From: Romanomermis culicivorax
Taxonomy: Eukaryota; Nematoda; Enoplea; Mermithida; Mermithidae
DNA length: 64,000 nucleotides
Direction: 5' to 3'
Assembly: GCA_963922205.1 (NCBI GenBank)
Contig: CAWUHX010000346.1
Location: 186,001 to 250,000, forward strand
A program made the position numbers and the translations under genes. This document shows positions 4,086 through 64,000 of the stretch, in pieces. How positions within the stretch are numbered: the first letter of the stretch is position 1; every line of letters begins with the position of its first letter. The notes under the pieces were generated by a model, which saw nothing but the letters and a program-made list of their open reading frames with translations, had not been told where the DNA came from and did no database searches.

Positions 4086-4959
4086 TGTAACGACCAGATT
4101 TTGTGAAGCACTTTACTTTAATGGACGTTACGGCGGAGGGGCGCGGCGTGGAACCGCTACGATAATACAATGAATGGTCGAGGGTCGCTTGAACGTCGAC
4201 TACACATAATTGGACGGCGCGTTTGCTTGCAAATAAAAATACGACTCGGTTTAACTGCTTTCGAAAACGGTTGCTTGCAAATAAAATGAGCGGGCCGCGG
4301 ATCAAAACAAAGAATTACAATAATCACCAATAATAATAAAATCACGCTTTGCTTCTCTTTAAATATGACGTTTTTGGCCACTCCCTGGGCGTCGCGGGAG
4401 GCTGTGCTTCTGTCCATCTTCTTCCGCCAATCGTCACTTCCTGCTTTGCTTTTCATGCTTACTTAGCCACACCCTTTAACACTTTTCTAGTAAGGTATGC
4501 TTTTCGTGTATTGCTTGCTTCATACGGTGGGCTTAGCCACACCTTTGTGCTTCTGTGCATGCTTCCTGTATCGGTTTCTCTGTATACACATGTTTTGTGG
4601 GGCCATCGCTACCGTTGCACTTGAGACTACTGTCTGGCGGGGCTTTTACTTATTTTACTGTGTGCAGGTGTTGTTTACGATTTTTATGGGGGATTACGGT
4701 AGCCGTGGAATGTGTAGTTTAGTGTAGGTTCTAGGGGACCAGCTGCCGTTTGTGCAAATTAATTGGGGCATCTTAATTGGGCTACCGGGGTGTGAACGGA
4801 TCAAAATAAAGTACTTCACGTAATTTTATAGGAATGTTTGGGTGTGAATCCCAGACACCCTTGAGACGATAAAATACGAAAATGAAATAATATTTAATAA
4901 ATGTCTATCACATACAGTATGCTATATATTTACAGTACTGCTTTAGCAGGTATGTTACA
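4086..4959 (-). repeat. E1 3' LTR
   Basis: An 874-bp copy of 12420-13302. It begins TGTAACGACC and ends GTTACA on the + strand, so the six terminal bases are perfect inverted repeats. Because the element is coded on the - strand, this is its downstream LTR. Open frames inside it (for example on both strands at 4157-4727) recur in the other LTR, but they carry no recognisable domain and are not called as genes. Confidence 0.92.
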
Positions 4960-4972
4960 TTTCCCTCCTTCC
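4960..4972 (-). other. E1 polypurine tract
   Basis: On the - strand this reads GGAAGGAGGGAAA, directly abutting the start of the 3' LTR at 4959. That is the expected position and composition for the plus-strand primer of an LTR element. Confidence 0.75.
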
Positions 4973-5113
4973 AGAGTTGAACGTCCTCGTTCAAGGGTTT
5001 CGAGGGTAGAAAGGGGTTGTCTCGTTTACATGTACCATAAATGTGATATTCTTATGGGGGTGTTTGAGTGTAATGTTGGGGTACATGAAATTTGTAACTG
5101 TATAGGGCCCGTT

Positions 5114-6739
5114 TTAGCGAGGGAGGAATTTGGGAGTCAGCCCTTGTTTACATGAATGATTTTTGTAGAGAATAAGATCACCTGCCTTGTAATGGATGTT
5201 CTGAACATGCTTGTTATACTGACGGGTATAGTGATCTTGGGCTTTTTGTAAGCTTTTCTGTACGGTTGAGAGTGCTTCTGTAAAGTGAGATTTTACACGA
5301 AGGGTGTAATCATCTAAATCAACCATGTAGGACGTGGGGAAAAAATTTAAAGCTGCGTCTGATGGAAGATTAGCCTGTCTACCATGGAGCAATTCAAATG
5401 GGGGATAGGAGGTGCTATCATTCTTATGAATGTTGATCGAAAAAATGGCATATGGTAGATAAGTATCCCAATCAGTGTGATGTGAATTGATGTACATGCA
5501 GATAGGGGTGGCTAGGGTCTGGTTGCAGTGCTCAACTTCCCCATTGGCAATGGGAATGTATGGGGTGGTATGAATTTTCTGAGTGTTGCATAAGCTAGTG
5601 ATCCGTGAAAAGAGATCGGATACAAAATCGGAGCCACGATCACAATGGATGATTTTTATGGAGCCATGACGGCAAACGATTTTGGTTAGGAATAATTTGG
5701 TGATAGTGGCTGCAGTGATATCAGGGGTCGGAAATGCCTCCACATACTTGGTGAAATAATCGATGAAAACGACAATAAATCGGTTGCCGTCTTCAGTGAG
5801 GGGTAAAGGCCCCATGCAATCAACACCGACTCTATCAAATGGGCCAGTCGGCTGAATTGGTACCAGATTCACATGTACTTTGTGCCGGAGGGCTTTCTGT
5901 GTCTGGCATGGGTGGCAAGTTTTGCAGTAACGTTTGATATCGCGGCTCATTTGGGGCCAAAAATATTTTTGCCTGAGCAAGTGTAAAGTTTTCCTGGCAG
6001 CGAAATGACCTGTGAATTTGCTGTCATGATGAGAGGCAATGAGATGCTGGACTTGTGATTTGGGAATGTATAGTTTGGCCTGTTTGTTGACTATGCGAAA
6101 GAGGATGTTGTGATGCACTGCGAATTTGATCATAGTAAGGGGGTGTTTTTTGGCCATTTTTGCTAAAATACATTTGACAGTTGGGTCAGTGCGTTGGAGT
6201 TCGGCAAAATTTTTCTGTTGTTCTTCTTGTTCAGTTGCTTCAGCCTCAAGAACAGAATTTATGGTTGATATTTCAGGGCGGGTTTCTAGTTGCTCAATAT
6301 CAAAGGATTGCTTCGCTGTCTGTGAGGGGAATCGAGAAACAGCATCTGCGTTGCGGTTAGCAGTGCCTTTCTTAGGTCGAATGTCGAGCTGAATACCGGA
6401 GAGGGCTAATCCCCAATGGGCAATGTGAGGGGATGGGTTTTCCTTCTGTAAGACTGCTTGAACTGCAGTATGGTCAGTGTGTACAATAACATGTTGCTGG
6501 AGAAGGTAGGGGCGGAAATACTTGACAAACTCAACTACTGCAAGGGTTTCCAACTCAGTTATTAAGTAGTTGCATTCTGCGGGTTTTAATGTGCGGCTCC
6601 CAAAAGCAATGGTGCGATCCTGACCTTTACTGTCTAGCTGACTGAGAATGGCGCCGATTCCGAGTTTTGAGGCGTCAGTTTGCAGAATAAACGGTTTGGT
6701 GAAATCGGGATGCTGCAGTATTGGGGCATGAATTAACAA
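5114..6739 (-). pseudogene. E1 RNase H and integrase
   Basis: A 541-codon open stretch of the pol frame. RNase H: catalytic acidic residues in FILQTDAS, TELETLA, VHTDHTA and NADAVSR (residues about 20-145). Integrase: zinc-binding HH-CC segment (HHDSKFTGHFAARK ... CKTCHPC), then the core with D in VGVDCMGP, D in CDRGSDF and E in NGEVEHCNQ, so the DDE triad is present. The C-terminal part has the YKAGDLIL and KQGLTPKFLP segment found in Ty3/gypsy integrases. It is in frame with the upstream RT segment and separated from it only by the stop at 6830-6832. Family role: degrades RNA in hybrids and joins the cDNA to the genome. Called pseudogene because the upstream frame is broken. Confidence 0.88.
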
Positions 6740-6829
6740 TTCTTTTAGTTTAGTGAATGCGTTTTGGTGTTCAGGGCCCCAGGAAAATTTCGAATTCTTT
6801 TTGAGTAGGGCTGTGAGTGGGGTAGAGAT

Positions 6830-7636
6830 TTAGGAGCAATTTGGGATGAATCTACGATAATAAGAGGGTAGGCCAAGGAATGACTTAACTTCTTTTGAGC
6901 TTTTGGGCGTGGGTATGTCATAAATGGACTGTACCTTATTGGGGTCTGGTGAAATGCCTTGTTGAGAAATGATGTGGCCTAAGTATTGGACTTGGGGCTG
7001 GCAGAATTTGCATTTTTGTATGTTTAGTTTAAGGCCTGCTTGGGAGAACCAGGCAAGGATAGTGTCTAAACCTTCCAGCATTTGGGCATGGGAGTTTGCG
7101 AAGACTAAAACATGGTCAAGATAGACAAGGCATGTGTTCCATTGCAATCCCCAAAGAATAACATCCATTAACCTTTGGAATGTGGCTGGGGCATTGGTGA
7201 GGCCAAAGGGAAGATAGTTAAACTGATATTGTCCAGCTGAGCAATTAAATTCAGTTTTTTCTCTGTCTGCTTGTGCTATGGGAATGGAATAATAGGCATT
7301 GGATTGGTCAAGGGACATAAAATATTTCATTCCATGGAGGGTGTCTAGAATTTCGTCTATGCAGGGCAAGGGGTAGGTGTCTTTTTTGGTTACTTTATTG
7401 AGGCCTCTAAAATCAATGCATAAACAATGGCCCCCATCTTTTTTGGGGACTAAAACTGTGTTGGTACACCATGGAGAATTGCTCTGGCTTATGACACCTG
7501 CTGCTGGGAGTTGCTCAACTTCTGCTTGTATGATTTGCTTTTCCTTTGGGGTGGTACAAAAAAGGTGTCTGGGTACGGGTTGGGAGCCATTGGTGTCAAT
7601 TGTGTGTGAAACGAGGGTGGTTCTACCTACGTCCAT
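6830..7636 (-). pseudogene. E1 reverse transcriptase, catalytic motif altered
   Basis: RT fingers and palm of Ty3/gypsy type: WCTNTVLVPKKDGGHCLCID, DFRGLNKVTKKDTYPLP, motif A as MSLDQSNAYYSIPI, and LPFGLTNAPATFQRLMD. Motif C reads YLDHVLVF, where the usual second aspartate of YxDD is histidine (codon at 7112-7114). Family knowledge says that residue binds catalytic metal, so this copy is probably inactive. The stretch ends at an in-frame stop (6830-6832), after which RNase H continues in the same frame. An in-frame stop at 7769-7771 separates it from the protease upstream. Confidence 0.88.
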
Positions 7637-7768
7637 TTTGGATTTAGCATATAATGTAGGGTACTTGGATAGGGCGTGTAGAAGTTGAGTTTTTTCGGTT
7701 TCTGTGAGGTCACTGGAGGTTAAATTAACGTTTTGTTTTAACCATGTGAATGTATTAAAACGGTTTGG

Positions 7769-8690
7769 CTAGTTTTGCATCGAGGGGGTTACTTTAGGGG
7801 AAGCATCTTGTTTTGGGATGTAACATGAGACTGTACCAATGCATGCTCCAGGGTAAAGAGTTTGGGCTGTGTCTTGCGTGTTGAGGACCGATATGCGTAT
7901 GCGACTGTTTTGGTTTTCAGAGACACAAGCTGCGAAATGGACTTTGGGATTCTGTTTGGGTTTCTGGGTGAATTCAAGCTGTTTGACCTGTAGGTACAAT
8001 TTGGGCAAGGGGACAGTAAATTCTGTGACTGTACGGGGTGGTAATTCTAATTTTTTGTCTAAATAGGTGCCACCATGGGTTGAAAGGGGGCTATATTCTA
8101 GGCCATCACAAGGTAGTATGACATTGCCAAATTTGACCTGGGATTTTTGGTTGTTGATAGTGTATTCCGAAAATCGACTGAGAAAATTTTTGCCTAGAAG
8201 GACGTCTGCTGTGCAATCTTTTTGGACATGGACCATTATTGTTTCCTGGATTGTTTGGGCTGTTACTGTGACAAAAGTGGTTCCTACAAAGTGAATCGGG
8301 AGGTTATTTGCTGCTTTTGCTTGGACTAGCGGGGGTTTCATGTCTAACTGTAGAATTTGAGCGATCCGTGAATCAATGAGTGAGTATACAGCACCAGTGT
8401 CAATCATGCCTTTTGTAATTAGCTTGCTGTTAAGTGTGATGGGAATGTGAGGGGTATGTTTCTCAGGTACATTTTGGGGTGGCTTGTTTGATCCAGCTTG
8501 ATGAATTTGATTAATGAGTTCGATTGCAGGAGTTCGGGGGGTATCAATATCGACAAGGACGTATTTCTGCTGTGTTTGTGCCCCACGACGATTAGCTAAT
8601 TCTAAGAGAGCATGGCCGAATGATGGGGGAATGGTCTCATGTAAACATCTGTTGTGTGATGGTATTTCGTATGCATGTTCATTTGTGGCA
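7769..8690 (-). pseudogene. E1 aspartic protease region (single retropepsin-like domain)
   Basis: The frame continues directly from the env membrane segment. A linker leads into KGMIDTGAVYSLIDSRIAQI (active-site DTG near 8400-8415), and VLLGKNFLSRF (near 8170-8190) matches the hydrophobic-hydrophobic-Gly motif of retropepsins. A further ~130 codons follow before the stop TAG at 7769-7771. The corresponding E2 region has an extra upstream protease domain. Here only a stretch around VLVDIDTPRTPAIELI near 8520-8570 resembles it, without a DTG. Family role: self-cleaving homodimeric protease that matures the polyprotein. Confidence 0.8.
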
Positions 8691-8699
8691 TGATGCTTT

Positions 8700-10450
8700 G
8701 GGAAAGGGAAATATTTTCGAAGAACGAGAAAAGAGTAAAAGACGCCTGCAATAACTACAGTAATAACGACTAGATTAATAATGATTTGTAGGGGTCCTTT
8801 GAGTAAATTATTCAATCCATCTGTGAGACTTTGGGTAGTACCGGTTATTACATGTTCTATGCCTTGACCAGCGCCAGAGAGGGTATTTCCCATTGCTTGG
8901 CCACTGCCTGAGATCATGTTGTAAACTGTATCTGAGTTAAGGGACATTTGGGCAGTGTAATTGACGAGTTTTTAACAACATTTTCGAGTGTGTGAGTTTT
9001 GTAAATGTATTGTTTCAAAAAGAGTAAGTTTGTCGAAATTGTTGCAAGTTGATCATGAAAAATTGCGGGCATGTTAAAATGGAAAAGGGAGAAATTTTGG
9101 TTCCAGACGATTTCTAAGGGTAAATTTGTGACATTTGAGGATCCTGTTTCACTGACCCATGTATTATTCTGTTTGTAAAGGGCTACATGCATGTGATGGC
9201 AGTCAATGGTTTGTGAGAACGGGGTCAAATCGTTGCGTCCTGGGTTCAAAAACATGAGTTCAGCTCCTACCAGGATAGGTAAAAGTTTGTAGCATGTTTC
9301 GTTGATTTTATGGCTGTAAAAGACTTTAGATGCATTTACCTGCTTACGGGGCCAGACTGTGAGGGCTTCTCCTGTGAATTCTGCTATTATGTCGGTTCGC
9401 TGTAGGAATGCATGCGCCCCAAGGGTTGCATCAAGGCGCAAAATTTGCCATACTAGATCAAGGTGATGCTGTGCCTGTCTGCATAACTCACTACATATGT
9501 TTTTGAAATTTTGGATTTTGAATTCCTGGATTTTGTCTGCTAGATAGTTTAGTTTTGCGTTAATGGGTTCAAAATCATCAAAATGCTATAGTGTAGTATC
9601 AGTTTCATTGGTTTTGGGGTTAAAAAGGCATTACGATGTGGAGTGCTTTTATCTAGCTGGACAACAATGCCTTGTTCGGTTAGGATGCTGTCTTGGATTT
9701 CTGGGCAGTTGGGGTTCTAAAAGAGTGTATTTTTAATGGAGAATGCACCTTGTAGCTCTTCTATTATCATGTGGGTTTGCATGAGTTTTATGGGATGTGT
9801 ATTTTTGTATTCGAAAGGGCATAAGTTTTCGAATGCTGTTTCATTCCAGATAATGGACCCGTTGGTCATTACACAGTGGCCTGATGTTGATTTGCATGAC
9901 CCCAGGTCACCTAATGTACCTGTCATAGATTTTCCATTCCAAGATGCTATTTGTCCTATTTCTATGATGACGTTAGTGACCGAGGTACAGTGGTCTGTAC
10001 AACACCATGTGTATTCTACGCTTAGGGAGTTATTTGTTGACCAAAATCCTGGTTGGGTTTTGTATAATTTTTGACCATTGTGTTCTTTGTCTATGACGAT
10101 TGCCTTACAAACATGCGGGGTTAGATTTTGCATTTCAGTTTGGTCGAAAACAATACCTTTTGATCCAAAAAATCCTGTATTAGTACAAATTTTCCGTTTG
10201 CGAACACTGCATTTGTATGCATCTGTTATGTGGGGTTTAGTGGAGGGGATATAGATTTTTCCGAATGTCTGTACTGGTTTGTCTACTGTGGAAGGGGGAT
10301 GCATGATACAAGTTTTGGTATGCTGACTGAGTGACCGCTCAATGAAGTTCCACAGATCTGAAATTGGGCACTACACGATGTGGGGATTTTTATACAAAGA
10401 AAAATACAAAACATCGGCCAATACAATGTTTTAGTGGAGGCGGCGGGGCA
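8700..10450 (-). pseudogene. E1 envelope-like glycoprotein, between gag and protease, frameshifted
   Basis: Coded on the - strand in three separate frame pieces (about 10450-10283, 10304-9717, 9441-8914), then in the pol frame from 8947. A hydrophobic signal-like segment (CIFLCIKIPTSCSAQ) precedes the ectodomain. Cysteine-rich landmarks shared with E2 are [31 protein letters not shown] and LGDLGSC; then NGSIIW; then ALTVWPRKQVNAS and the PAIFHDQLA helix. Many N-x-S/T sites are visible. A Gly/Ser-containing amphipathic stretch leads to a membrane span (IIINLVVITVVIAGVFYSFLVL, near 8705-8800). I cannot place it in a named fusion-protein class. At least two frameshifts and a stop at 9717-9719 make it a pseudogene. 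Confidence 0.7.
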
Positions 10451-10653: not shown

Positions 10654-11190
10654 TCAGGCCATGGAGAAGGGACAACAAGTTACGACCTGTTTTTGATGGA
10701 GTTTCGGGGGTGGTGGGCGACTTGGTGTCTTGTTTTCGGGGCATCTTGTAGCCTGCCGGGATGGTAGGTGGCGATTTTTCGATTTTGGCGGCTTCGGGCA
10801 TGGGGGTGGTGACATGGTGCACCAATCGAGTACGTCCAGGTCGAGGACGTACTCCTCCTGACTATGTCGGTGGGTGGTGGGCATAATGGTTCCTAAAGTA
10901 GTCTGAGGGCCGTTAGTTATGGCGGTTAATGTTGAGTAAAATGCAGGGTCATCAATGTCCATTAGGGGTTGGGGTTGTCTGTACTCAATGCAATTTTGAA
11001 TATTACGACTTTGTTGATTCGGACAGTACCTACTTGTATGACCTCTCTGCTTGCATAGAAAAATTTGAAAATTTGAGTAGGGTTTTGAAAGGCAGTTATC
11101 AGATCTATGTCCTGTTTGGGAGCAGTGGATGCATCGGCTTTTACAATCACAGGTAGTGTGATTATTACAAAAACAGATTTCACATGATTT
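10654..11190 (-). pseudogene. E1 gag 3' part: extra zinc knuckles and acidic/proline linker
   Basis: Continues the gag frame after its TGA stop (11191-11193). Codons just downstream still spell zinc-knuckle sequence: CEIC...H...C, then CIHCSQTGHRSDNC (a full CX2CX4HX4C), then a third knuckle whose first cysteine is replaced (LCKQRGHTSRYC). The frame then runs open through MDIDDPAFYS to a proline-rich tail ending at 10654, overlapping the start of the env-pol frame (10825) by 172 nt. In E2 the homologous knuckles are continuous with gag, so the TGA here looks like a disabling mutation and not a natural end. Confidence 0.65.
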
Positions 11191-12177
11191 TCAGGTGCCT
11201 ACTGATTTACAATTATGAGCTACATGTCCAAGTTGTCCACACTGGAAGCATGTGGGTTGCCTAGGGGTGGTATTGTTCCTGTAAGCATTATTCCTGCTGA
11301 AAGTATTGTTACTGAAATTGTTGTAGCTACTCTGTTGTGGGGGTTGAGGTTTTTGCTTGATCTGCAACTGTAAATCTTTTACTTGTTGTTCTAACTGATG
11401 CAAAAGGTCCTGTTGGTCTGTATTTTTGGTTAGGGAAAAGATGGGTTCGGGTTTTGGGGGTATAAATGAAAGGGTGTTGGACTTTAACTCATTTCTAAGG
11501 ATTTGTTGTTCAATGTAAGCTGCTTCGTCTGACATTTCTTTTAGAGTTGCGAACTGTCTGTACTTAATTGCTTCCCTGATTTTGTTTTGCATGCCTTCTA
11601 CAAAGAGGGGTTTTATAATCATTTCTCGTGCATCTGTGTTAAAGTTAGGGTAGGCGAGGGTTGCGAGATGTTCTAGATCAAACAAGAATTCAGTGACTGT
11701 TTCTGATCGCTTTTGTTTTCTCTCGCATAAAAATTGTTGATGTAGCTCATTATCTCGATTGTTAGGGAAAAATGCCTGTAATGTGATTTTATACTGCTCG
11801 TATGTGTGGGGAGGGTTTTCGGAATTGACTAAACTTTTGAATTTTTCTAACGGGGCTCCTCCCAAATGAATCTCTAAACATGCCAACTTTAACTGTACGT
11901 CTGTATCTTTCATGCCTTTGAGTGCCATGAATTGTTCTAAACATTTGTTCCATTCACCAAAATGTTGAGTCACGCTGCCCGTGAATACTGTAGGTTTCGC
12001 GTAAAAATTATTTGCCATGTTATTATGAATGTTTGCTGTTCTTAGATCCTGTATTAGGGTAGGGTTTACTGTATTCTGATTCAATTGTGTGCGCAGAGTA
12101 CGAAAATGTTCTGAAAATAAATCGTTTATTTGTTCTCTAACAATTTCTCGTAAGTGATCTTGCATTTGGTGGGTCAT
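11191..12177 (-). CDS. E1 gag (capsid and first zinc knuckle)
   Basis: Open frame of 328 codons starting at a clear ATG. The N-terminal ~65 residues are helical and polar. A capsid-like retrotransposon gag domain follows (VFTGSVTQHFGEWNKCLEQF ... DVQLKLACLEIHLGGAP ... LHQQFLCERKQKRSETVTEF). Then comes a Gln/Asn-rich stretch and a CCHC zinc knuckle, CFQCGQLGHVAHNC. Role by family: structural protein of the virus-like particle, with RNA binding by the knuckle. It ends with TGA at 11191-11193, although knuckle-coding sequence continues beyond it. Confidence 0.85.
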   Translation of the reverse strand: MTHQMQDHLREIVREQINDLFSEHFRTLRTQLNQNTVNPTLIQDLRTANIHNNMANNFYAKPTVFTGSVTQHFGEWNKCLEQFMALKGMKDTDVQLKLACLEIHLGGAPLEKFKSLVNSENPPHTYEQYKITLQAFFPNNRDNELHQQFLCERKQKRSETVTEFLFDLEHLATLAYPNFNTDAREMIIKPLFVEGMQNKIREAIKYRQFATLKEMSDEAAYIEQQILRNELKSNTLSFIPPKPEPIFSLTKNTDQQDLLHQLEQQVKDLQLQIKQKPQPPQQSSYNNFSNNTFSRNNAYRNNTTPRQPTCFQCGQLGHVAHNCKSVGT

Positions 12178-12400
12178 TCTTGGTTTACGCTGGGATTTCT
12201 GCTTAAATGCTTCAATTTTTGCTTCAGGCTGTATTCGTTTAAATGTATCGCTTAATGTTTTGTTGGAGGGGATTTCCAGTTTGCTTTCTATGAATACTGT
12301 CTTACTGTAGGAAATAATTACTACTATATTATCTAATGCTTCGAAATGCCCGGATAAGAGTACACCTAATTGGGGCAGGGAGTTCCAGTGGTTAACGGTA

Positions 12401-12419
12401 CGGTACGGTCACCAAAATA
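12401..12419 (-). other. E1 putative primer-binding site
   Basis: On the - strand, five bases after the 5' LTR end, the sequence reads TGGTGACCGTACCG. TGG is the expected complement of a tRNA 3' CCA end, and TGGTGACC could pair with a tRNA acceptor end. I could not match it to a specific tRNA. Confidence 0.35.
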
Positions 12420-13302
12420 TGTAACGACCAGATTTTGTGAAGCACTTTACTTTAACCAATTGGACATTACGGGGGAACAAAACAGGGCGCGGGGCGGAAC
12501 GGCTACGATAATACAACGAATGGTCGATGGTCGCTTGAATGTGGACTACACAAAATTGGACGGTGCATTTGCTTGCAAATAAAAATATGACTCGGTTTAA
12601 CTGCTTTCGAAAACGGTTACTTGCAAATAAAATGAACGGGCCGTGGATCAAAACGAAGAAATACAATATCCACCAATAATAATAAAATCAGGCTTTGCTT
12701 CTCTTTAAATATGACATTTTTGGCCACTCCCAGGGCGTCGCGGGAGGTTGTGCTTCTGTCCATCTTCTTCCGCCAATTGTCGCTTCCTGCTTTGCTTTTC
12801 ATGCTTACTTAGCCACGCCCTTTAACGCTTTTCTAGTACAGTATGCTTTTCGTGTATTGCTTGCTTCCTACGGTGGGCTTAGCCACACCTTTGTGCTTCT
12901 GTGCATGCTTCCTGTATCGGTTTCTCTGTATACACATGTTTTGTGGGGCCGTCGCTACCATTGCACTTGAGACTACTGTCTGGCGGGGCTTTTACTTATT
13001 TTACTGTGTGCAGGTGTTGTTTACGATTTTTATGGGGGATTACGGTAGCCGTGGAATGTGTAGTTTAGTGTAGGTTCTAGGGGACCAGCTGCCGTTTGTG
13101 CAAATTAATTGGGGCATCTTAATTGGGCTACGGGGGTGTGATCAGATCAAAATAAAGTAGTTCACATAATTTTATAAGAATGTTTGGGTGTGAATCCTAG
13201 ACACCCTTGAGACGATAAAATACGAAAATGAAATATTTAATAAATGTCTATCACATACAGTATGCTATATATTTACAGTACTGCTTAAGCAGGTATCTTA
13301 CA
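12420..13302 (-). repeat. E1 5' LTR
   Basis: An 883-bp copy of 4086-4959, starting TGTAACGACC and ending CTTACA on the + strand. It is followed by GTGC (13303-13306), the right copy of the target-site duplication. On the coding strand it is the upstream LTR and should hold the element promoter. I could not fix a TATA box or start site. Confidence 0.92.
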
Positions 13303-13479
13303 GTGCCAACCCTGCTCCGATCATTTCAAAAAGAATGCAGTACACTGACACTTTGCTGGATACGTTCTTTTCATTTTTTTCATTGATATTTTTTCATCAG
13401 ACAAACTTGAGGGATGTATTCGGCTCAATTCTGATCTAAAATTTACTGCAATATGAACTGTAGGAGATCATTTCTCAAC

Positions 13480-32440: not shown

Positions 32441-32889
32441 GCTGCCCGGTCCCGAGGGGAGATGTCCGGTGAGATTACAGCATTGGCCTCGACCCACTGA
32501 CGATCGAGGACGGGGTCTGAGTCGACCGGTGATTCCCGTGAGGGCTCACTATGCATCTGCACATGACCGATGGTCGTGTGCGGGTAGAGAACCACAGAAT
32601 GAGTACTCGGGTTAACTACCTGAAGTGGTATGTGACCGTTGGTCAGGCTACTCATGCTTCCAGCAAAATATACGTGTCTTTGAGATCCGGTGAGGTGCTT
32701 CGGAAAGAAGGCCACCTCAGGCACGTTCGTATAGATTGGTGGGACAGGGACAGTGAATCGTGTCAGGGAGCGAGGCTCTAGAATTACCAAGTCCTTCAGG
32801 GGCAAGGCGCGGCGGGCAGAAGGTGGGCTGTGGATGAGACCGTCACAGGGGATTCTACTTTCTTTGAACTGGAGGAAGGATTTCTCCCA

Positions 32890-33220: not shown

Positions 33221-33499
33221 GTGACCACATGACTGGAATCAGGTGTGGTGGCACCACAAGTGTGTTTGGTCGTACCGGACCGCTTTGGAATCGGCAGTCC
33301 CGTACGACGTAGTAGACCTACTAGAGCGTATCCGACGGAGGGTTCCGGGTCGTTTAGAAGGGTGGACTCCTCCTGTACCGTGAGTACGTGGTCTGAGTGA
33401 TCCTTCGGACTCTGAGTAGCTCCTAGTGATTCAATCTCGGTGTCCGATAGCGGTGGCGCGTTTGGCACGGGTGATGCCGGAGCATCTGAATCACTTGGC

Positions 33500-36072: not shown

Positions 36073-36094
36073 AAATCTGGCCTGAGGGGCAGTG

Positions 36095-36841: not shown

Positions 36842-36849
36842 GAAATCGA

Positions 36850-38616: not shown

Positions 38617-38766
38617 GTCCGAGGGTTCGTTTTCCCGTAAGGTGGTTAGAACAGACGTCCTTGCCCGTGAAGCAATTAAGTCAAATTGGATAGAGAGCGG
38701 CTCACTGGTCTGTACAGGCTGGGTACTGAGACGGCAGGAACGACGGGGTGTCTCTATTGTGTAAAA

Positions 38767-41700: not shown

Positions 41701-42315
41701 AATGGAAAATAAACAAATAAGGTAGTTTACAACACAGATTAGGTATGCAGAATATACAGGATTAATCAGAGGAGAAATACAGAATACTCGATATATAACT
41801 CAACTCTGGGGCAAATAACTCGGCTCTGGGGATAAATAACTCGACTCTGCGGGAATTTATTACTCATAGGGGTACTACACACGCATGAGATAATTATTTA
41901 CACATATATATATCACATTTAGATCACTCGTAAGGGCAAGTCCCGTCTTACAGTAATTAAACTCGATGTTAAGGAATAAATTCCCGACCTACAGTAATAA
42001 CTCTCGGTGGCACGGGAAAAATTCCGACTTACAGTAATAATACTCGACCTAAGGGGAAGTTTCCGACCTACAGTAGCGGTAATTCGAAATAAGGGACATA
42101 CCCGACCCATCAGGCAGTAAACCCGAATTTGGGGGGGGGGGATCTCCGACTTATTGGATGGCTAGTACCCGATTTTAAGGGGGCTTGTCGGACTTAAAAT
42201 GGGAATTGACCCGACCTGGGGGTAGTTCCGGCCCAAGGGTGAAGTTTTTGCACTTAAGGGCGAGTGCCAGACTTAAGGTCGATTTTCCAGCCTCGCCATG
42301 TCACATTTTACGCCA
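38767..42315 (-). other. E2 5' leader, repeat-rich
   Basis: A 3.5 kb untranslated leader between the 5' LTR and gag. Contents: scattered GAGGCGGAC motifs (for example near 39193, 39733, 39775, 39830), the CRE-like tandem array (40419-41115), a run of ~22 T (41269-41290), ~27-bp repeats of AATAACTCGGCTCTGGGG type (41795-41860), and ~38-bp repeats built on CCGACCTACAGTAATAA (41945-42095). On the - strand, TGGCG abuts the LTR end (42311-42315) and may start the primer-binding site, although I could not match a tRNA. No coding region recognised. Confidence 0.6.
40419..41115. promoter_or_regulatory. Tandem array of CRE-like TGACGTCA sites in the E2 leader
   Basis: TGACGTCA or AGACGTCA at 40419, 40579, 40644, 40709, 40774, 40841, 40908, 40973, 41041 and 41108, plus a degenerate AGACGCCA at 40513. 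From 40513 on, spacing is 65-68 bp. Each site is usually preceded by GTTGC, with ACACGTAATG-type sequence upstream. TGACGTCA is the palindromic site of ATF/CREB bZIP factors. The arrangement recalls the repeated Su(Hw) sites in the leader of Drosophila gypsy, but with a different site. Confidence 0.8.
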
Positions 42316-43734
42316 TGTCACGTGTATGACATGTGGATTTGGGAGAGCTGGGGAGGTTTGGGTATCTCATCAGGTAATACCGTGTTTTAGACGTCACATT
42401 GATGGTGAACCATATCAGATTGATCCTATTACAGTGAGTAATAGGCTGTGACTCCTGATGGATACTGGCATTTTCCCCAGGCTTCCCTGGTTGGCGTTGG
42501 GGCCTAACCTGGCGAATGGTGGCTATAGAGAGGTCTATAGTTGGTTCTCTGGTATTGTCCTTGGGGTCTTGCTGTAGGGTAATGGACAACGCTGCCAGGC
42601 TAGGTGCGACAATCCCCGAGTCCTACTCAGTGAGAGTGGGGACAGGGTCACCCGTAAAATGACCTAATTTGTGGGACCCGGTTATGAACCATACAGCCCC
42701 TGTTAGCCCGAACCTGAGAGGTGGAAGCCCTACTTATCTGTGGACTTGGGGAAACCGACTTAGGAAGGATTTCCCAACAAATACCCCACAAATAACAATA
42801 ATCCCCTGAGAAGACTCACCTAGTCCTGTTTCTCAAGCGATTCGACGCGACGGGCGGCAAGTCCCTGGATGCTTTCGGTCTTCTGGCACTTGGAGCGGGG
42901 ATGCGATCCTCAAAACGTCCTAGCGGCGAGCGGTGGCGAGCGGCGGCGAGCGGGAGGCGATGCTCCAACGTTTTCTTCACGAACCGGGGGCGGTCGGACA
43001 CCTGGCACTGGTGGGCAGTGGGGTACTGTAGGCGGTAAGTGGCGGACGCAGTGAACAAGGGTAAATTTATGCAAATTTATTGGTAATAAGGCGGCGGACG
43101 CACAGGTGTACAATAAAAATATGCAAATTCAACGAAGGGCGGCGGACGCGGAGTTACAACCGGACGAAAGCTTGGTGAACCCAAGAATGAGCGAAAAACT
43201 AAAGAAACATGTCCTTTTAAGGACATGTTTGGCTACAGCTGCAGCTTGGGCGGAGTTTCTCGGCGCTCAAGCTAACTTCTGCAGCTAGACGCGATGCAGA
43301 AGATGCCTATGAGCACATAGACATTTTTTCGTTCACATGCGTTTAGCACTGAGGCCGACTGCAGTGCCTATGCTAAGCATATGAACGTCTTTAGCTAAAA
43401 CTTCTTAGCTAGTCGTTTTTGCGTAACAAAAACGACGCTAATTTTGATGATAAGAGGTGCGTGAGCGCACCAAAAATAGCCATGTGCTCGTAGAGCACGA
43501 CTGGCGGAAGTTTTTAGCTAAAGGGCCTACTGTAGCCCGCGTTTGTAAAGAAATAAAAATACAACAAAACGAAACATAGAAATGCATGAAAAATACAAAA
43601 ACGAACGTAAAAATGCATGTGTAAAAAATGAAATAAACGAAAGCATGATCGAGTAATAAACGAAATATGAAAAATAACAAAATGTCGGCATGATCAGGAT
43701 CACGTGACGTTGGAGAATTGAGCGGCACGTGACA
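42316..43734 (-). repeat. E2 5' LTR
   Basis: A 1419-bp copy of 27574-28978 with TGTCACGTG...CACGTGACA ends. On the coding strand it is upstream and should contain the promoter. The GTCGTTTTTG/CAAAAACGAC hairpin is at 43412-43436. Followed by ATACAC; TACA at 43736-43739 may be the target duplication if the true end includes one more base. Confidence 0.92.
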
Positions 43735-55056: not shown

Positions 55057-56395
55057 TGTCACATTAAGTAGATTGGGAGCCATGTCATGTTAACTGAATT
55101 TGGTGATCAGTCACATTGATGGGAAAACCCATACCATATCCCATAAGAAATACGGCCATGACACTGTAAGTGACATGCTGTGACCCTGTGGGTGGCTCTG
55201 TTTGGGTATCTACTTCGGGAACCTAACCCAGCTGGTACTACCACAGGAAACCTATGGTGTACCTTGACCTTGTCCTGGGGTTCAGCTGTAGAATAATGGA
55301 CAACGCGGCCAGGTAAGGGATGACAATCCCTAGTCCTCATTCACTGGGAATGAGGGACTGTGCCATTCATGGAATGGCTTACTGTAGGGGACCCAATTGT
55401 AAACCTAAATCCCCTTATTGGCCCTGACCTTAAGGGTTCAAGGGCTTTTCTAACTGAGGGTACTCTCAAGGGAAAACTGGCTTAAGGAGGATTCCCACAA
55501 ATATACCCTTAACAATAATATCCCTGAGAAGACTCACTTGATCCTCTTTTCAAAGTACTCGGTGCTGGGCGACGGGTTCAAGGGTTAAAGGTGGGTCCTA
55601 GGGACGACAGGGAGCGGTTACAGTAATACGAAACGATTCAGTGTGGAGTGTCGGCAAATGCCGGTTGGCGAGCGGCGATACAAAGCGTACCTTGGGGAGG
55701 TGAGAGGGGTTCTTGATCAACAGGCGAGGGGGTAACTCCTAGGTTGGAATATGGTAATGGGCAACACAAGGGAGATCGAAGGGGAATATGTTAATTTATT
55801 AAGAAAAGCGGTGGATGCAGGTAAAATATGTAAATTTGTATAATGACAACACAGAGGAATGCAAGAATGCAAGCTGGAAAATGCAAAGACGATTAGGCCC
55901 AAAAATGAGTGCAAAATTAAAGAAACAAGTCCTTTTAAAGGGCCCCGTAATCTACAGTATGCCTTGGGTGGAGCTAAGACACACCCAAGCTAACTTCTAC
56001 AGGGGAAATCGCTGCAGAAGGTGCCTATGGTCACATAGACATTTTCCAGTTCACTATGTTCAGCATTGGGGCGAGTTTCACTCTCCATGCTGAACATTAT
56101 GAACGTCATCTAGTGAGAATCTCCAAACTAGTTGTTTCACGTTGCGAAACGTTGCTAGTTTTTACTGATAAGAGGTGCACATTGTGCTCCAATTACAGCA
56201 ATGAGTTCCGAGAGCTTATCTTTAATAGAAATTCTGACTAGTGGGTTAATACCGTAGTCTACGTGCCCAATGGAAAAATAACAAATTGTAATGAAAATAA
56301 AAGTGCAAAAATGAAACAAAAACAAAACGCAAAAAGTACACACAGAAAATGCATGTAAAAATATAAAAACAGAACACAAAATTAATGTAAGTTAC
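55057..56395 (-). repeat. Truncated LTR abutting the E3 LTR
   Basis: Starts TGTCACATTAAGTAG at 55057 and aligns along its length with 56396-57834 (for example ATCAGTCACATTGATGGG at 55123 and 56445). It stops at 56395, about 100 bp short of the CACGTGACA end, where the next LTR begins directly. It is either a solo LTR cut by later insertion of E3 or the product of unequal recombination. Confidence 0.75.
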
Positions 56396-57834
56396 TGTCA
56401 CATTAACTGAAATTGGGGGCCATGTCACATTAAGTAGATTGGTGATCAGTCACATTGATGGGAAAACCCATACCATATCCCATAGGCAATATGGCCATGA
56501 CACTGTAGGTGGCATGCTGTGACCCTGTGGGGTGGCTCCATTAATGGTTTCAGTTCGGGAACTTAACCCAGCTGGTACTACCACAGGTAAACCTATGGTG
56601 TACCTTGGCCTTGTCCTAGGGTTATGCTGTAGAATAATAGACAACGCAGCCGGGTCAGGGATGCCAATCCCTAGTCCTCACTCACTGGGAATGAGGGACG
56701 GTGCCATTCGAAGAATGGCATACTGTAGGGGACCCGATTGTTAACCTAAATCCTCTTATTGGCCCTGACCTTAAGGGTCTGAGGGCTTTCTCAACTGAGG
56801 GTACTTCCGAGGAAAACTAGCTTAGGGGAGACTCCCACAAATATACCCTCAACAATAATAACCCCTGAGAAGACTTACTAATCCTCTTCTTAACCTACGC
56901 GGTGATGAGCGACGGGTCCTGGAGGTCAAAGCATGGGGTCCTAGGGACCGCGATGAACGGGTACAAAATCCGAGCGATTCGGCGTGGGGTACTGCAGCTG
57001 CGGATCGGCAGGGGGCGGTATCAAACGTTTCCTCGGCGAGGGCGACGGGGTTCCTGATTAACGGCGATGGGGACAAGTTCCTACGGTTGGGTTACTGTAG
57101 TGGTAACGTATATGAAGGCCGGAGGCGAGAATATGTAAATTTTATTCAACAAGCGGCGAACGCAGTTGACAATAAAACAATATAATAATAATGACGACAG
57201 CAAAACGCAAGACGCAAGGCTAAAACGCAACAACCAATTAGAGTCGAAGACAAGACGAGTCAAGACAGAAAAATGACAAAACATGCCCTTTTAAAGGGCT
57301 CCATAAACTACAGTATGCCTTGGGCGAAGTTAACACTCCCCCAAGCTAACTTCTGCAGCGGAAATCGTTGCAGAAGATGCCTATGGTCAGATAGACATTT
57401 TCCAGTTCACAACGTTAAGCGTTGGGGCGAGTTTTCACTCTCCATGCTTAACATAGGAACGTCACTAGTGAGAATTTTGAACTAGTCGTTTCATGTTGCG
57501 AAACGTCGCTAGTTTTTACTGATAAGAGGTGCACCTTGTGCTCCAATTACAGTGATGAGCTCGGAGAGCTTATCTCTAACCGAAATTCTTGACTAGCGGG
57601 TACATACTGTAGTCTATGTGTATAACAAAATAACAAATCGAAACGGAAATAAAATGTGTGCAAACGCAACAGAAATAAAACATGAAAAGTACACACATAA
57701 ATTGCATGTGAAAATTATAAAAACGAAACACAAAATTGATGAAAATTACTGTTACACAAAATGTAACGAAAAACATAACGAAAAATTGTGATGTGAATCA
57801 CATGACGTTCGACGAAATTCGTCAGCACGTGACA
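56396..57834 (-). repeat. E3 3' LTR
   Basis: A 1439-bp LTR beginning TGTCACATTAACTG and ending CACGTGACA, followed by CGGCCGTCCTTCGAAAAA as in E2. It keeps the E2-type hairpin with a compensating base-pair change (CGTTTC...GAAACG at 57488-57506 versus CGTTTT...AAAACG in E2). Confidence 0.85.
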
Positions 57835-58296: not shown

Positions 58297-59811
58297 TTAT
58301 GGGTCGGAGACCTCTGCATCAAGATGTGGGTCAATGAGATCTTGTGTAAAATCTCGGTTTGTTGATGGAATCAACAATGGTGCCATCTTGATGACCTGGG
58401 AAGTGGAAGGTATCTCCTCTTCTTCTGTAGGCTGAGCAGGTGACACGTAGCGTCTAAGCTGGTTGACATGTACAGTGTCTTCTTGGTCAGTCCCAAGTGG
58501 GATAGTGTTATTGGGATATGCCACATTCATTACAAAGTAGGGCCCATCATAAACGGGCAGCAATTTAGGCGTTAGGCCACGTTTGCTGGTTATGCGCAGC
58601 TTGAGCACCTGATCCCCAACTTTGTATGAGACATCTCCTGCCATGCGGTCGTATGACCTGGCATAAGCCGCCTGTGATCTCTCGATTCTGCTCTGGATCA
58701 AGGTCAAGGCATTTGTGAAATGCCGTTTGACCTCCATATCATAAGTAGAAACATCTATGATATGGGCCGAAGGGTTGAATGAGAGCGCCGCATCAACAGG
58801 TAGCATGGGCGTACGGCCATACTTGAGCTCAAAGGGTGAATACCCTGTGGACTCATTCATGCTAATGTTGACGGCGAACACAGAATACGGCAGGTGTTTA
58901 TCCCAATCAGTATGACCTTGGTGGACATACATACGTAACCGTGTAGCTAGCATTTGATTAGCTCTTTCCATTTCTCTGTTTGTCATCGGGTGATAAGCGG
59001 TGGAGTGGATTTCCTTTGTTGAACAAGTGGCAGTGATTTCAGTCATCAGTTTGGATGTGAAATCAGTGCCACAATCAGACTGAAGAATCTGTGGTGCCCC
59101 ATGTCTGCAGACAATTTGTGTGACAAAAAGTTGTGCTATGGTTTGGGCAGTGATGTTGGGAGTAGCAAAAGCTTCAACCCATTTAGTAAAGTAGTCTATA
59201 AAGACTACAATAAAACGGTTTCCACTTTCGCTAGTGGTCATTGGTCCCATACAGTTGACACCGACTGGATGAAATGGCCCAGTAATGGTAATCGGTTTCA
59301 GAGTTGCACGGGTCTTTTGTCTTACGGGTTCATTCCATTGGCAAAGATCACACCGCTGACAAAAGGACTTGACGTCCTCACTGAGGGAAGGCCAGTGGTA
59401 CCTGCGGGCTATAAGCCTCGCGGTACGTTTCACACCAAAGTGTCCAGCAAGAATGTCATTATGGTGAGCCTCAATAATGGTAGTAACCATTGATCGGGGT
59501 ACGACAATCTTGTTGGACTCGCCTGTCCACTTCTGAAGGATGTTATCCAACAGGTGGTAGCCATTAACATCATTCTGATCACCGTAGGGTTCTAGTGACC
59601 TAAGAATGGAGGCTAATTCCGGATCCTCAAATTGAGTTGTGAGAAGGTCATGGTGCTGGGCATCCTGTGATATCTCTGCATAAGACTCAGACCTCGCCAG
59701 GTGCTGCGCACCATCGGTGGTCCTGTTGGATGATCTCGCCAGGCGATGCGCACCATCGGAGATCATTTGAGATGTTCTCGCCAGGTGCTGAGCACCATCA
59801 GAGATCATCAT
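58297..59811 (-). pseudogene. E3 integrase, first catalytic Asp changed
   Basis: A 504-codon stretch aligned with the E2 integrase: zinc-binding HHNDILAGHFGVKR ... FCQRCDLCQ, core with QSDCGTDF and REMERANQ, C-terminal KRGLTPKLLPVYDGPYFV. The first catalytic position reads VGVNCMGP, with Asn (codon 59254-59256) where E2 and E1 have Asp, so strand transfer activity is not expected. The N-terminus has three copies of a ~16-residue repeat (SDGAQHLARTSQM / DGAHRLARSSN / DGAQHLARSES), also seen in E2 with degenerate forms. Upstream it joins RNase H in the same region after a stop. Confidence 0.85.
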
Positions 59812-59922
59812 AATCTCTCCCTCAGGCCTGTATAGGGGAATATCGTCAATACTGTCCCTGACACGGGAATTAGGATCAGGAAGGCGTGGGAATGTGTCAG
59901 CATTACCATTAGACCCACCTTT

Positions 59923-61164
59923 TCACGGCCGAATTGTCAGTTTGAATTCAGCGAGCGCGAGGCCCCACCGAGCTATCCGGGCTGAAGGGTTGGGTTTCTC
60001 CAACACAGCCTTAACAGCAGTGTGATCGGTCTGAACGACCACCTCATATTGAAAGAGGTAAGGTCGAAAGTGCTTGAGGAAATGGACAACAGCGAGAGTC
60101 TCCAACTCCGTAATAGTGTAGTTCTTCTCAGCTGCTGTTAACCCTCTACTGGTGTACACAACAGGATGGTCGTATCCATTACCATCTAACTGGCTCAGAA
60201 CTACTCCTATCCCCCAAATACTTGCATCAGTTTGAAGTATGAAGGATTTTGTAAAGTCCGGATGGGGCAGAACAGGAGAGTTCATGAACAGCCTTCGGAG
60301 TTCATCGAACGCCGCTTGCTGAGGTTTTGACCACAGGAAGGTAACTTCCTTCCGTAAGAGCTTGGTCAGCGGCTCGCTGAGCCGAGCGCAACCAGGGATG
60401 AAATGCCTATAGTAAGACACAAGACCAAGAAAAGACTTGATGTCCTTGGCATTCTGTGGAATGGGTAGATCCTGGATGGCAGCCATTTTGACTTTATCCG
60501 GCTCTAGACCTTTCTGTGAGATATGGTACCCTAGATATTCTACCTCGGAGTGCGAAAACTTGCACTTGCTCAGTCTGAGCTTCATCCCACCTTGACGGAG
60601 ACGCATAAACACATCCGTCAGGCACTCAAGCATCTGGGTGTGAGAGTTCCCGAACACCAAGATGTCATCGAGATAAGTCAATGCCGTGCGCCACTGCAAT
60701 CCTGTGAGAAGCAGGTCCATGAGACATTGAAATGTCCCAGGTGCATTGCAAAGACCAAAAGGCAGATAGTTGAACTCGTAAAGTCCAATAGGCGTGATAA
60801 ATGCCATTTTCTCTTTGTCTGCCTTGGCAATAGGTATAGACCAGTAGGCGTTAGCTTGATCAAGGGTAGTAAAGTATTTCATACTCTTGAGTGTGTCGAG
60901 GATATCATCAATCCGTGGGAGAGGATAAACATCCTTTTTCGTGACCTCGTTAAGACCACCAAAGTCCACACACATCCGGTGTGACCCATTTTTCTTGCAA
61001 ACCAGGACGGTATTGGTAGCCCAGGGTGAGGTACTAGGCCAAATAATGCCTTTTTCCTGGAGTGCTTTGACTTCCTGTATGATGAGATCCTTTTCCTTGG
61101 GCGCGGTGCGGTAAGGGAAATGGCGGACTGGGCGAGCATCACCCGTACTGATCTCGTGGTGCAC
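59923..61164 (-). pseudogene. E3 reverse transcriptase and RNase H
   Basis: A 413-codon open stretch: TNTVLVCKKNGSHRMCVDFG, TLDQANAYWSIPI, LPFGLCNAPGTFQCLMD, YLDDILVF (intact), RNase H with FILQTDASIWGIGVVLSQLD, TELETLAVVHF and VVQTDHTAV, ending at a TGA (59923-59925) just before the last RNase H motif (NADTFPR follows in frame). Compared with E2, the stop corresponds to a CGA codon, a single C-to-T change at CpG. It is connected to PR2 upstream only across a frameshift near 61178. Confidence 0.88.
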
Positions 61165-62378
61165 AAGGTCAGTGGAACCTGTGTGTCCTTTTCATCAATA
61201 GCATAGAGGTCAGTGAATGCGACCAGTAGGTCGAGCAACGCTGTTTTGTCCTGTGAGGAGATATCTGAAGATATCACAGCATTGGCTTCAACCCACTTAT
61301 GGTCAAGAATGGTATCAGACTTGACCGCCGATTCCTGTGAAGAATCAGTGTGCATCTGCACATGACCAATGGTCGTGTGCGGGTAGAGAACCACTGAGTG
61401 TGTACTCGGGTTAACTACCTGTAGGGGTATGCGACCATTAGTCACAGTACTCACAGTACCAGCAAAGTACACACTGCGTTGCTGTCCCAAAAGAGGCTTA
61501 GGAAAGAAAGCTACCTCGGGTACAGTTGCGTATAATGCAGGTACAGGTGTAGTAAATTGTGTCAACGAGCGAGGCTCAAGGACAATCAACTCCTGCAAGG
61601 GTAGTGCCCCATGAGTGGAAGGAGGATTGTGAATGAGCCCCTCACACGGAACCTGAAGTTCCTTGAACTGAAGAAAGGATTTCTCCCAGTTCAAGCTGAC
61701 ACAATTGAACCGCCCGAGGAATTTCGTCCCCAAGACTAGTTCAGCCGAACAATTCTCTTGAACTTGGGCCTGAATCCGTTCAGAGACATCAGCCACTGTC
61801 ACCGTGACGTAGGCAGTGCCTAGCAGTAGAATCAGAGACCCATTGGCTGCTATGGGGCAAGCCCTAGTCTCTGTGAGCACCAAGTCGGGTAACTGAACCA
61901 CCAACTTGTGATCCAGGAGTGAGAAAACTGCTCCTGTATCAATTAGAGCTTTGGCCTCCACCCAATTGTTCAGTAGAACTCTGATATGAGGGTACCTCAT
62001 TTCAGTAGGGTAGAAAGCTGCCACTACATGATCTGGGTCAGGCACGGAGTCATCAAAACTCGACTTTGGCGCATCGGTTCGCCTTGGTATTGGCAAACCA
62101 GTGCGCCGGAGTAATCTTACCAGAGCATAACCAACCGAGGCTTCCGGATCGGTCCCAGGAGTGGGATGAATGTGAACAGTAAGTACATGATCCGATCGTT
62201 CTCCTGAGCTCTGAGTAGCTCCTAATGATTCGACTTCAGCGTCAGAGAGTGGATGCACCTCTAGTACAGGGGATGCAGGGGCATCAGAATCACTAGGCTT
62301 GCGAAAATGGCCTTTCTCTAGTGTGACCGGAGGAGCTCCAGGCGGAGGTTGAGGACAGTTTGACCCTGACCTGGTCAT
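61165..62378 (-). pseudogene. E3 second protease domain (PR2) and linkers
   Basis: The frame runs from 62378. It starts in the Pro-rich linker (PPGAPPVTLEKGHF), has the active site KALIDTGAVFSLLDHKLVVQ and AELVLGTKFLGRF, then the ~150-codon linker that precedes RT. The frame then slips: E3 has two extra bases (GTGTGTCC versus GTGTCC in E2) near 61178, so the RT must be read in another frame. Homologous to 32440-33560 of E2. Confidence 0.82.
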
Positions 62379-62399
62379 AAAGTGACTGCTGGCCCATCT

Positions 62400-63240
62400 A
62401 GAAGAGGTTCAACTCCCTCTGGTTTACCCACGGGATGAGGCAATTGAGGAAGCTCACGAGGGTGACTGAGAAATGGACGAAGTCCTTGATCTGGATCGGG
62501 ACCCCAACCTGTGGGAGGCCCTTGATAGTGAAGGTGTGTTCTCCCACCAGGGTTCGATCTGGTCAATCTCAGCCGCTGTCAAAAGAAGTGGCAGTTCTAC
62601 TGCATTCAATTGACAGACTTGTTGTTGGTAATCAAACGTGATATTCTAAAATTGTTCTAGAAAGTCCAATCCGAGAATCAGATCGACCAGTGCCCAGAAA
62701 GGAGACGTAGTCTTACACACATGGAGATGTATATCCACTCTTGTGTGGGGCTGACAGGTTCCAGGCAACATGATCTCATACGGTCCCGATAGGAGAGTAT
62801 GGACAGCTTTCCCATTGATACTCATCAATGGGTTAAAGTCATGATGTTGCTGGAAAGCCATCCCCTCTTCGGACTTTCTTTAATCAAGGCTTTGTGAAGG
62901 CGTTGACTAATGATGGTACGTGGAAAACCAGTGTCAAGGAAAGCAGGAGTTTCCTTGTGGTCAACCAGTACGACAAAACACGGAGTGATCCTGTCCAACT
63001 GAGTTGGCACATCCTTCTGTACGTAATGAAAACCTATCCAACGCTGAACTTTCCGGAGGAGGTTCAACGGAGAGTATTGGCTAACAAACCAAACCTGTCG
63101 TTTCGGCAGGCGGTAACTGAGGTAATAGGAGATCCCAAGGTAGATGAGAAATCCTGTACTGGCCAGCACTGCCAGCCTGATGAGTGTGTTAAAGATCAAC
63201 TGCACTGGTCACTCAAAAGAGACTGTAAGCCCTGTATGAG
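62400..63240 (-). pseudogene. E3 first protease-like domain (PR1) and env membrane segment
   Basis: Pieces in different frames. 63205-62825 has the membrane span (FNTLIRLAVLASTGFLIYLG), a basic stop-transfer YRLPKRQ, and PR1 active site FLDTGFPRTIIS. 62861-62646 has MSINGKAVHTLLSGPYEIML and VDLILGLDFLEQF. The Ser/Arg-rich linker is mostly lost. This shows the two-protease layout is not peculiar to the E2 copy. Confidence 0.75.
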
Positions 63241-64000
63241 GTTGTGCTGTTGACCAGTAATCACGTGGTTTGCTGCCAGACCAACACCTTCCAGTTAGGC
63301 TTTGATGTCAGTCCCTACCACTGCAACCGCTTGATAAATAGTATCTGGTTGGAGGGATAGACCAGCGGTATAATTTACCAACTGGTTCAAGACTGCTTCA
63401 TTTTGCTCAGTCTTGTAAACGTACTGTTTAAAGAAAGCAAAACTTGAAGGGGTCATCGCCAATTGATCATGAAAGAGCGCAGGAGCGTCAAAGTGTGTGA
63501 CATTGAAGTGCTGTTTCCAGAACAGTTCAAGTGGAATGTGGCTCACATGGACCGTGCCAGACTCAGTAAACCAGCAGGAGCGATTTCAGAAAATCCCCAT
63601 AAAGTGATGGTCACACGGCACTTTTGGACTGAATTTAGTGAGATCTGGGCCACCAGGGGTGGCAAAGGCAAAATAAATGGTACCGCCAACCTGTAGGGGT
63701 AGATACTTGTAACAGTTGTCTCCCACCCCGTACGAATGGTAGACATAAGTGGCGTTGACCTTTTGACACAGCCATATCGTCAGTGCTTCACCGGTAAATT
63801 CCGCCCTCAGATCATTCCTTTGCAGGAATGCCCGGGCTCCTAGTGTAGGGTCAAAACGAAGCAACTGCCAAGTCAGATCAAGGTAGGGTTGAGCCTGAGA
63901 ACACAACTCAAGCCCATGAACCGAAAATTGTTAATTTCCGATTCTTTGATCTGCTGAGCCAGGTAGTTCAGTTTGGCATTGACGGGGTCAGGGACGGAGT
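63241..64000 (-). pseudogene. E3 envelope-like glycoprotein, C-terminal half (partial)
   Basis: Two open pieces, 63906-63586 and 63546-63295, matching the E2 ectodomain: [40 protein letters not shown], then [20 protein letters not shown] and [21 protein letters not shown] frameshift separates them, and a TAA (63295-63297) ends the second before the membrane segment. The N-terminal half is beyond the window. Confidence 0.75.

Follow-up and report, generated by a model that had tools for sequence, protein, structure and literature searches.

The stretch of DNA analyzed here, referred to as the window, comprises 64,000 nucleotides (nt) of the genome of the mermithid nematode Romanomermis culicivorax (GenBank assembly GCA_963922205.1, 359 Mb in 595 contigs; contig CAWUHX010000346.1, positions 186001-250000, or G000:C346:186001-250000 in our numbering). 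The nematode nature of the genome shows in its cuticle collagens: among 85 candidates scored, 50 matched PF01484, the N-terminal domain of these collagens, which is a marker of nematodes. A search for an arthropod cuticle domain, in which the controls stayed silent as well, gave no match. The minus strand of the window carries three long terminal repeat (LTR) retroelements, namely, E1 (4086-13307, about 9 kb), E2 (27553-43734, about 16 kb), and E3, which is truncated at the window end before gag is reached and is 79% identical to E2 across 5.8 kb. In these elements, a module resembling a viral envelope gene (env) is lodged between gag and the protease. The domain order established by Pfam and tblastn searches is gag, zinc knuckle, signal segment, ectodomain, membrane span, protease, reverse transcriptase (RT), RNase H, and integrase (Table 1). 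An earlier interpretation of the same DNA, made from the letters alone (hereafter, the sequence-only reading), had assigned the env-before-protease order to all three elements; it extends from gag to integrase in E1 and E2, but in E3 it can be followed only from the latter half of env onward, as far as integrase.

That reading had also proposed that E2 is a single open frame, and the frame is indeed open from stop to stop over 2,686 codons, beginning within the zinc-knuckle end of gag, where the CCHC motif was recognized by eye. The broader contention that env shares a frame with pol is borne out in E2 but not in the other two elements: in E1, both ends of the env module are in the pol frame but the middle is in two other frames, and E3 is frameshifted. 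Of the sequence blocks said to be shared, CTNTGFFGS occurs in both E1 and E2, and GQVASW or GQIASW is present as well. The suggested signal-like segment and C-terminal span coincide with strong hydrophobic segments of E2, besides which the only segment above the threshold is a weaker one at 37245-37189. Because pol stops only about 520 nt (E2) or about 150 nt (E1) short of the 3' LTR, no later env is hidden behind it. Both E2 and E3 (near 62900) contain, between the span and the main protease, a second, degenerate protease-like domain with a DTG motif; in the other copies sampled from the genome (see below), no second DTG was found by a simple motif scan, which also missed the main protease in several of them.

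Table 1. Features of elements E1, E2, and E3, in window coordinates.
Feature	Position	Strand	Basis or remark
E2 5' LTR	42299..43734	-	TG...CA ends; 94.5% identity to the copy at 27553
E2 primer-binding-site candidate	42281..42298	-	starts with TGG, abuts 5' LTR
E2 gag region	37561..38799	-	in the env-pol frame, stop codons inside; upper limit inferred from frame lengths of relatives
E2 capsid homology	37966..38559	-	tblastn with E1 gag: 34% over 199 amino acids, 5e-34
E2 single open frame	29497..37557	-	gag zinc-knuckle end, linker, env, protease(s), RT, RNase H, integrase
E2 internal signal-like hydrophobic segment	35977..36033	-	hydropathy 2.08
E2 Env ectodomain, gB/Monjiviricetes-like	34405..35961	-	16 Cys, 9 sequons; PF24664 1e-13
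E2 Env membrane span	34345..34401	-	hydropathy 2.26
E2 extra weak DTG aspartyl-protease-like domain	33841..34164 (approximate)	-	PF13975 0.0071, below cut-off
E2 main aspartyl protease	32899..33186	-	PF13975 5.5e-10
E2 RT	31588..32496	-	PF00078 8.5e-29; homologous to E1 RT
E2 RNase H	31147..31536	-	PF17917/PF17919
E2 integrase, H2C2 and core	30208..30702	-	PF17921, PF00665
E2 3' LTR	27553..28978	-	LTR pairing, ends inspected
E1 5' LTR	12420..13307	-	93.3% identity to 4086-4964
E1 gag with zinc knuckles	10657..12408	-	PF00098
E1 signal segment, Env ectodomain, span	8702..10417	-	frameshift-broken; tblastn to E2; PF24664 8.6e-18 on one piece
E1 protease	8072..8554	-	PF13975 8.8e-8
E1 RT, RNase H, integrase	5117..7768	-	Pfam
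E1 3' LTR	4086..4964	-	pairs with 5' LTR
E3 Env C-terminal half, protease, RT, RNase H, integrase	58300..63998	-	frameshifted; ends at window edge
LTR-like tandem pair beside E3	55057..57766	-	79% identity between the two

By sequence, the env module resembles viral fusion proteins. The Pfam profile PF24664 (Monjiviricetes_fusion) matches, in its middle part only, all nine rows of an alignment made up of E2 and eight copies from the genome, the invariant columns of which include 11 Cys. When a profile built from the env alignment was compared with solved structures, herpesvirus glycoprotein B (gB) was matched (5.3e-5 at best), in two collinear stretches that cover the signal segment with the first Cys block and the core, respectively, each weak alone (9.2 and 14.4 bits in the best gB chain). 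The E2 ectodomain is enriched in N-glycosylation sequons (9 versus 3.0 in shuffles, P 0.0025), alone among the four E2 segments tested. Chance likeness of the module is ruled out by profile and tblastn E-values far below chance. The membrane glycoprotein identity suggested by the sequence-only reading accordingly stands at the sequence level, through the match to a viral fusion-protein profile and the weak one to gB, and we infer that the module is a class III-type viral fusion protein with a gB-like fold.

By its domains and affinities, the pol is Ty3/gypsy-like, that is, of the Metaviridae type. Judged by solved structures alone rather than by a cross-family tree, the RT is closest to that of Ty3 (3e-75), followed by the 'Enzymatic polyprotein' 8r0s (1.3e-48), which we take to be that of a caulimovirus, and by foamy virus and other retroviral RTs (about 1e-24). 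Pfam assigned to the E1-E3 pol pieces no family that we would count as BEL/Pao-type. The other hallmarks of Metaviridae include LTRs that start with TG and end with CA, a primer-binding-site candidate in E2, a 4-bp duplication (GTGC, seen by eye) flanking E1, a CCHC gag, and the order protease-RT-RNase H-integrase. No target duplication was seen in the inspected flanks of E2. In E1, a TGG stretch lies five bases off the LTR and a purine-rich tract was noted by eye upstream of the 3' LTR; no clean polypurine tract was seen in E2. The two elements also have dissimilar leaders: the E1 gag frame starts no more than about 12 nt from the LTR, and the E2 leader (38800-42298, about 3.5 kb) holds no open reading frame (ORF) of 120 amino acids (aa), its kilobase beside the LTR folding better than 20 shuffles (z -2.8).

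The arrangement is general within this genome. In a genome search for env, 68 of 2,320 candidates were scored, all 68 exceeding the Pfam cut-off, and 20 copies were drawn from them at even steps, with the flanks on either side of env fetched separately. Env lies ahead of the protease in all 20; protease was recognized in 20, RT in 19, integrase in 18, and gag in 17, and, judged on the best match per domain, the order is unbroken in every copy. Adjacent elements account for the domains found out of place in two pieces: in the tandem array on contig C180, gag is preceded by the end of an integrase and integrase is followed by the start of a gag, and in L036, gag is preceded by a fragment of RT. 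An uninterrupted frame joins env with the protease in 11/20 copies, with RT in 8/20, and with integrase in 3/20; gag shares such a frame with env in 6/20, continuing to RT in 3/20 and to integrase in 2/20, one of these two copies being E1-like and the other belonging to a third lineage. Head-to-tail arrays occur in the genome, with env matches each 8,365 bp (G000:C180:404-17640) or RT matches each approximately 12,180 bp (G000:C17:1929774-1955212).

Long frames are common in the E2 family, which has very many, near-identical (about 98%) copies in the genome. Among the RT matches of this family, taken as the best 113 of 8,456 candidates, 60 belong to frames no shorter than 3,040 aa (34 of 3,092 aa and 18 of 3,100 aa); of the 77 env matches, 43 belong to frames that measure 2,990 aa or more. 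For 50 of these 77, there is a listed RT on the same strand within 15 kb, and for the other 27 there is none among the matches listed; 49 have the RT 3,800-3,802 bp downstream, and the remaining paired match has it 12.2 kb upstream, presumably in a neighboring element. In 43 of the 50 pairs, the env and RT matches report frames of identical length. Given the length of 3,100 versus 2,686 codons, and the presence of gag in the expected frame in one relative, it follows that the long frames of the E2 family should run from gag to integrase. In the E1 family, 48 of the 127 scored RT matches belong to frames no shorter than 2,470 aa, a length sufficient for all domains from gag through integrase.

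The module seems to have been inherited together with its neighbors. Trees of gag, env, protease, RT, and integrase, with 10 or 11 rows each, show no well-supported conflict: wherever the respective rows are present, all five unite E2 with E3, L014 with L016, E1 with L011 and L024, and L009 with L010/L012. The L014/L016 pair is apart from E2/E3 in the env tree (61/20) and joined to it in the other four (48/15 to 90/83), and a larger env tree groups L014 with E2/E3 (81/81); the union of the E1 group with L010/L012 is strong in env and RT and weak in integrase (41/4) and gag (57/41). Comparison of E2 with E3 gave ratios of nonsynonymous to synonymous substitution rates (dN/dS) of 0.079 over 82 codons and 0.111 over 149 codons of env, and of 0.127 over 884 codons of RT, RNase H, and integrase. 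An E1 env piece compared with L007 gives 0.158, and three closer env pairs give 0.20 to 0.38, the top pair including a row with an off-frame end; deeper env pairs are close to saturation at silent sites. By these ratios, env is under purifying selection, and the possibility that it is dead cargo is ruled out by the values of 0.08-0.11. These elements are most simply read as having long inherited a gB-like glycoprotein between the nucleocapsid end of gag and the protease, a single capture being the simplest scenario.

Relatives also exist outside this genome. None came up in a protein search for which the query was an env-protease piece, its candidates being limited to proteins of similar length, which is perhaps why a longer query succeeded; a profile search recovered three env relatives, and the longer query, scored on env alone, recovered from other public sources eight proteins that are 1,079-2,847 aa long. 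In all eight, env precedes the protease or RT, so that the order recurs in other sources, as the sequence-only reading had proposed to check; upstream gag homology is present in four, RT in seven, and integrase and a recognized protease in six each. The env and RT trees of these proteins have in common a branch that parts P0012 and the main nematode lineages from the rest, and both cluster L015 of the R. culicivorax genome with P0013 and P0015; they differ in the exact place of P0012 and in the branching among P0014, P0016, P0017, and P0019. Scans that depend on exact short patterns yielded no relatives, whether in viral_contigs (env and RT as queries) or in genome_contigs (env as query), and neither did a search of the phage collection. 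No relative with env after integrase was encountered among the elements examined, with no search of this genome made for env-less sisters or different types of env. A sequence resembling a furin site, the basic stretch RKRRQ, lies between the ectodomain halves of P0011; no such stretch was seen by eye in the rows of the window Env alignment.

The broken state of E1 and E3 in the window would fit a one-off rearrangement, a nested insertion, or an assembly artefact. However, such an origin of the order is contradicted by its presence in 20/20 sampled copies, the broadly agreeing trees, the constant env-RT spacing, and the eight outside proteins, and we consider it practically out of the question. 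The notion of an inherited architecture, advanced originally from the comparison of E1 with E2 and E3, is thus upheld by the sampled copies, the five trees, the purifying selection on env, and the outside proteins.

The order, the long frames in many copies, the selection on env, the agreement of the trees, and the recurrence elsewhere can all be read off the sequences. As for how these genes would work, we think it probable that the elements are of the Metaviridae type, with an inherited gB-like Env between gag and protease, and express a Gag-Env-Pro-Pol polyprotein with a flavivirus-like topology. One genomic RNA would be translated into a single polyprotein, in which the internal hydrophobic segment would act as the signal peptide, so that Gag would stay in the cytosol. 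The glycosylated ectodomain would enter the lumen of the endoplasmic reticulum, and the membrane span would bring the chain back to the cytosol. There, the four enzymes, from protease through RT and RNase H to integrase, would fold on the membrane. Basic residues, which follow the span in the alignment rows extending that far, would hold the enzymes on the cytosolic side. Signal peptidase would cut the N-terminus of Env, and the protease of the element, located tens to a few hundred residues past the span, would make the cytosolic cuts. The flavivirus polyprotein carries capsid, signal, glycoprotein, span, and cytosolic enzymes in one chain. The polyproteins of flaviviruses and alphaviruses are alike in having a cytosolic capsid, an internal signal, a lumenal glycoprotein, and a span, but they are unrelated and involve no reverse transcription; the proposed topology is also unlike the situation in retroviruses, with their spliced env message.

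The position of potential start codons bears on this proposal. The Met ahead of the signal segment is not conserved across rows: in a comparison that leaves out L005, the nearest Met upstream of the ectodomain is at about 100 residues in E2 (by eye) and 62 in L004, none is found in 116 residues of L007, and in L008 a pair of them precedes the ectodomain by about 30 residues. A separate, Met-initiated env ORF is thereby ruled out as a general rule, although some members may use one. Indeed, several points weigh against a single polyprotein throughout. A Met does lie beside the signal segment in E1 of the window, L002, P0018, and P0019, so that some members may have a start of their own for Env-Pol. 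Furthermore, a single polyprotein yields equal amounts of Gag, Env, and Pol, which retroviruses avoid, and no device regulating the Gag:Env:Pol ratio was found in these elements. Finally, with 18 of the 20 sampled copies not intact from gag to integrase, and just two intact, the majority are broken somewhere.

A retrovirus-like alternative, which we regard as unlikely, is that Env is made from a spliced RNA, with an upstream gag exon providing the ATG and a second intron or early polyadenylation removing pol; the frame common with pol would then serve the unspliced product only. The lack of a conserved start codon at the signal segment is what would be expected with an ATG from an upstream exon, and retroviral Env is described as a spliced product in PMC10309623. 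However, no stop separates env from the protease in E2 and in 11/20 sampled copies, intact ones among them, so that splicing out gag alone would still give Env-Pol. Conceivably, the fusion protein was instead repurposed as an internal anchor that concentrates Pol and Gag on membranes, the elements moving by intracellular transposition rather than by infection. The fusion of env with pol in one frame is in line with such a role, and the very many copies of about 98% identity in one genome are expected from intragenomic spread, but conservation extends to the ectodomain, the Cys pattern, and the signal segment, not to the span alone, and we find this possibility distinctly improbable. The membrane-threaded polyprotein remains the reading that we favor.

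How do these elements relate to known ones? The env of gypsy is a fusion protein of a different type. With the errantiviruses, such as gypsy, and Metaviridae at large, the elements share LTRs, a CCHC gag, the protease-RT-RNase H-integrase series, and a Ty3-type RT. Cer-7 of Caenorhabditis is a BEL-type element with a herpesvirus-derived env downstream of pol. It is similar in the nematode host and the gB-related env and differs in its BEL pol and the location of env. Cer-7 is named in PMC7642597, where Anakin is presented as a group of Pao elements with a chuvirus glycoprotein; in Anakin, the same broad glycoprotein type has been captured by an LTR element, but one with a BEL/Pao pol. A 2023 survey reported no clear case of capture by Gypsy (PMC10084718). 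The account of Metaviridae by the International Committee on Taxonomy of Viruses (ICTV) puts the coding region of Env, in members that have one, downstream of integrase; Env is not required, one- and two-gene env-less members being included (PMC7879559). E1 and E2, with Env ahead of the protease, depart from that description, which agrees with the norm invoked in the sequence-only reading; the novelty implied there is, however, reduced by Burro.

Burro, a group of giant gypsy-like elements of planarians reported in 2019, is described in PMC6431247 as having env in frame between gag and pol, and its env region matches fusion glycoproteins of arthropod and fish mononegaviruses. The likeness extends to the gypsy-like pol and to env sitting between gag and protease within one large ORF. 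Burro exceeds 30 kb, resides in flatworms, and includes MATH, BCL2, BIR, ankyrin, Ubi, and dUTPase-like parts (PMC6431247), none of which Pfam listed in the E1-E3 pieces scanned; compared with Burro, by description only, E1 at about 9 kb and E2 at about 16 kb are smaller and represent several lineages in a nematode host. Our literature search came across env between gag and pol in PMC6431247 only and did not find a compact nematode version. Because Burro has been reported with this arrangement, the elements described here are a variant of it rather than unprecedented: a compact, abundant, and recurrent form of a known, little-noticed organization that departs from the ICTV description of Metaviridae. 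On a broader proposal, we are slightly more doubtful than confident: a deep, animal-wide branch of Metaviridae might have become enveloped independently of retroviruses, via one membrane-threaded, flavivirus-like Gag-Env-Pol polyprotein and without an env message, with Burro as a bloated offshoot.

A multi-copy group of several lineages with Env inside Gag-Pol represents another route for a retrotransposon to become virus-like, and raises the questions of the Gag:Env:Pol ratio, of protease activation at the membrane, and of the topology of a membrane-made reverse transcriptase. The long uninterrupted copies are numerous enough in one animal for a study of expression, and, in the annotation of repeats, env should not be sought after pol alone.

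Some minor features of the window and the assembly complete the picture. The Rfam search of the window gave no matches. A repeat family of approximately 98 bp units, both direct and inverted, occupies window positions 22200-23136, 50000-51600, and 53500-54580. Elsewhere, inside an assembly contig, L049 (G000:C117:992573-993922) is a nearly full-length COX1-like frame with 11 TGA codons read as Trp, a reading that the invertebrate-type mitochondrial code fits; AAA stands at its conserved lysine positions, which speaks against a flatworm. This frame is either a nuclear copy of mitochondrial DNA or a misassembly.

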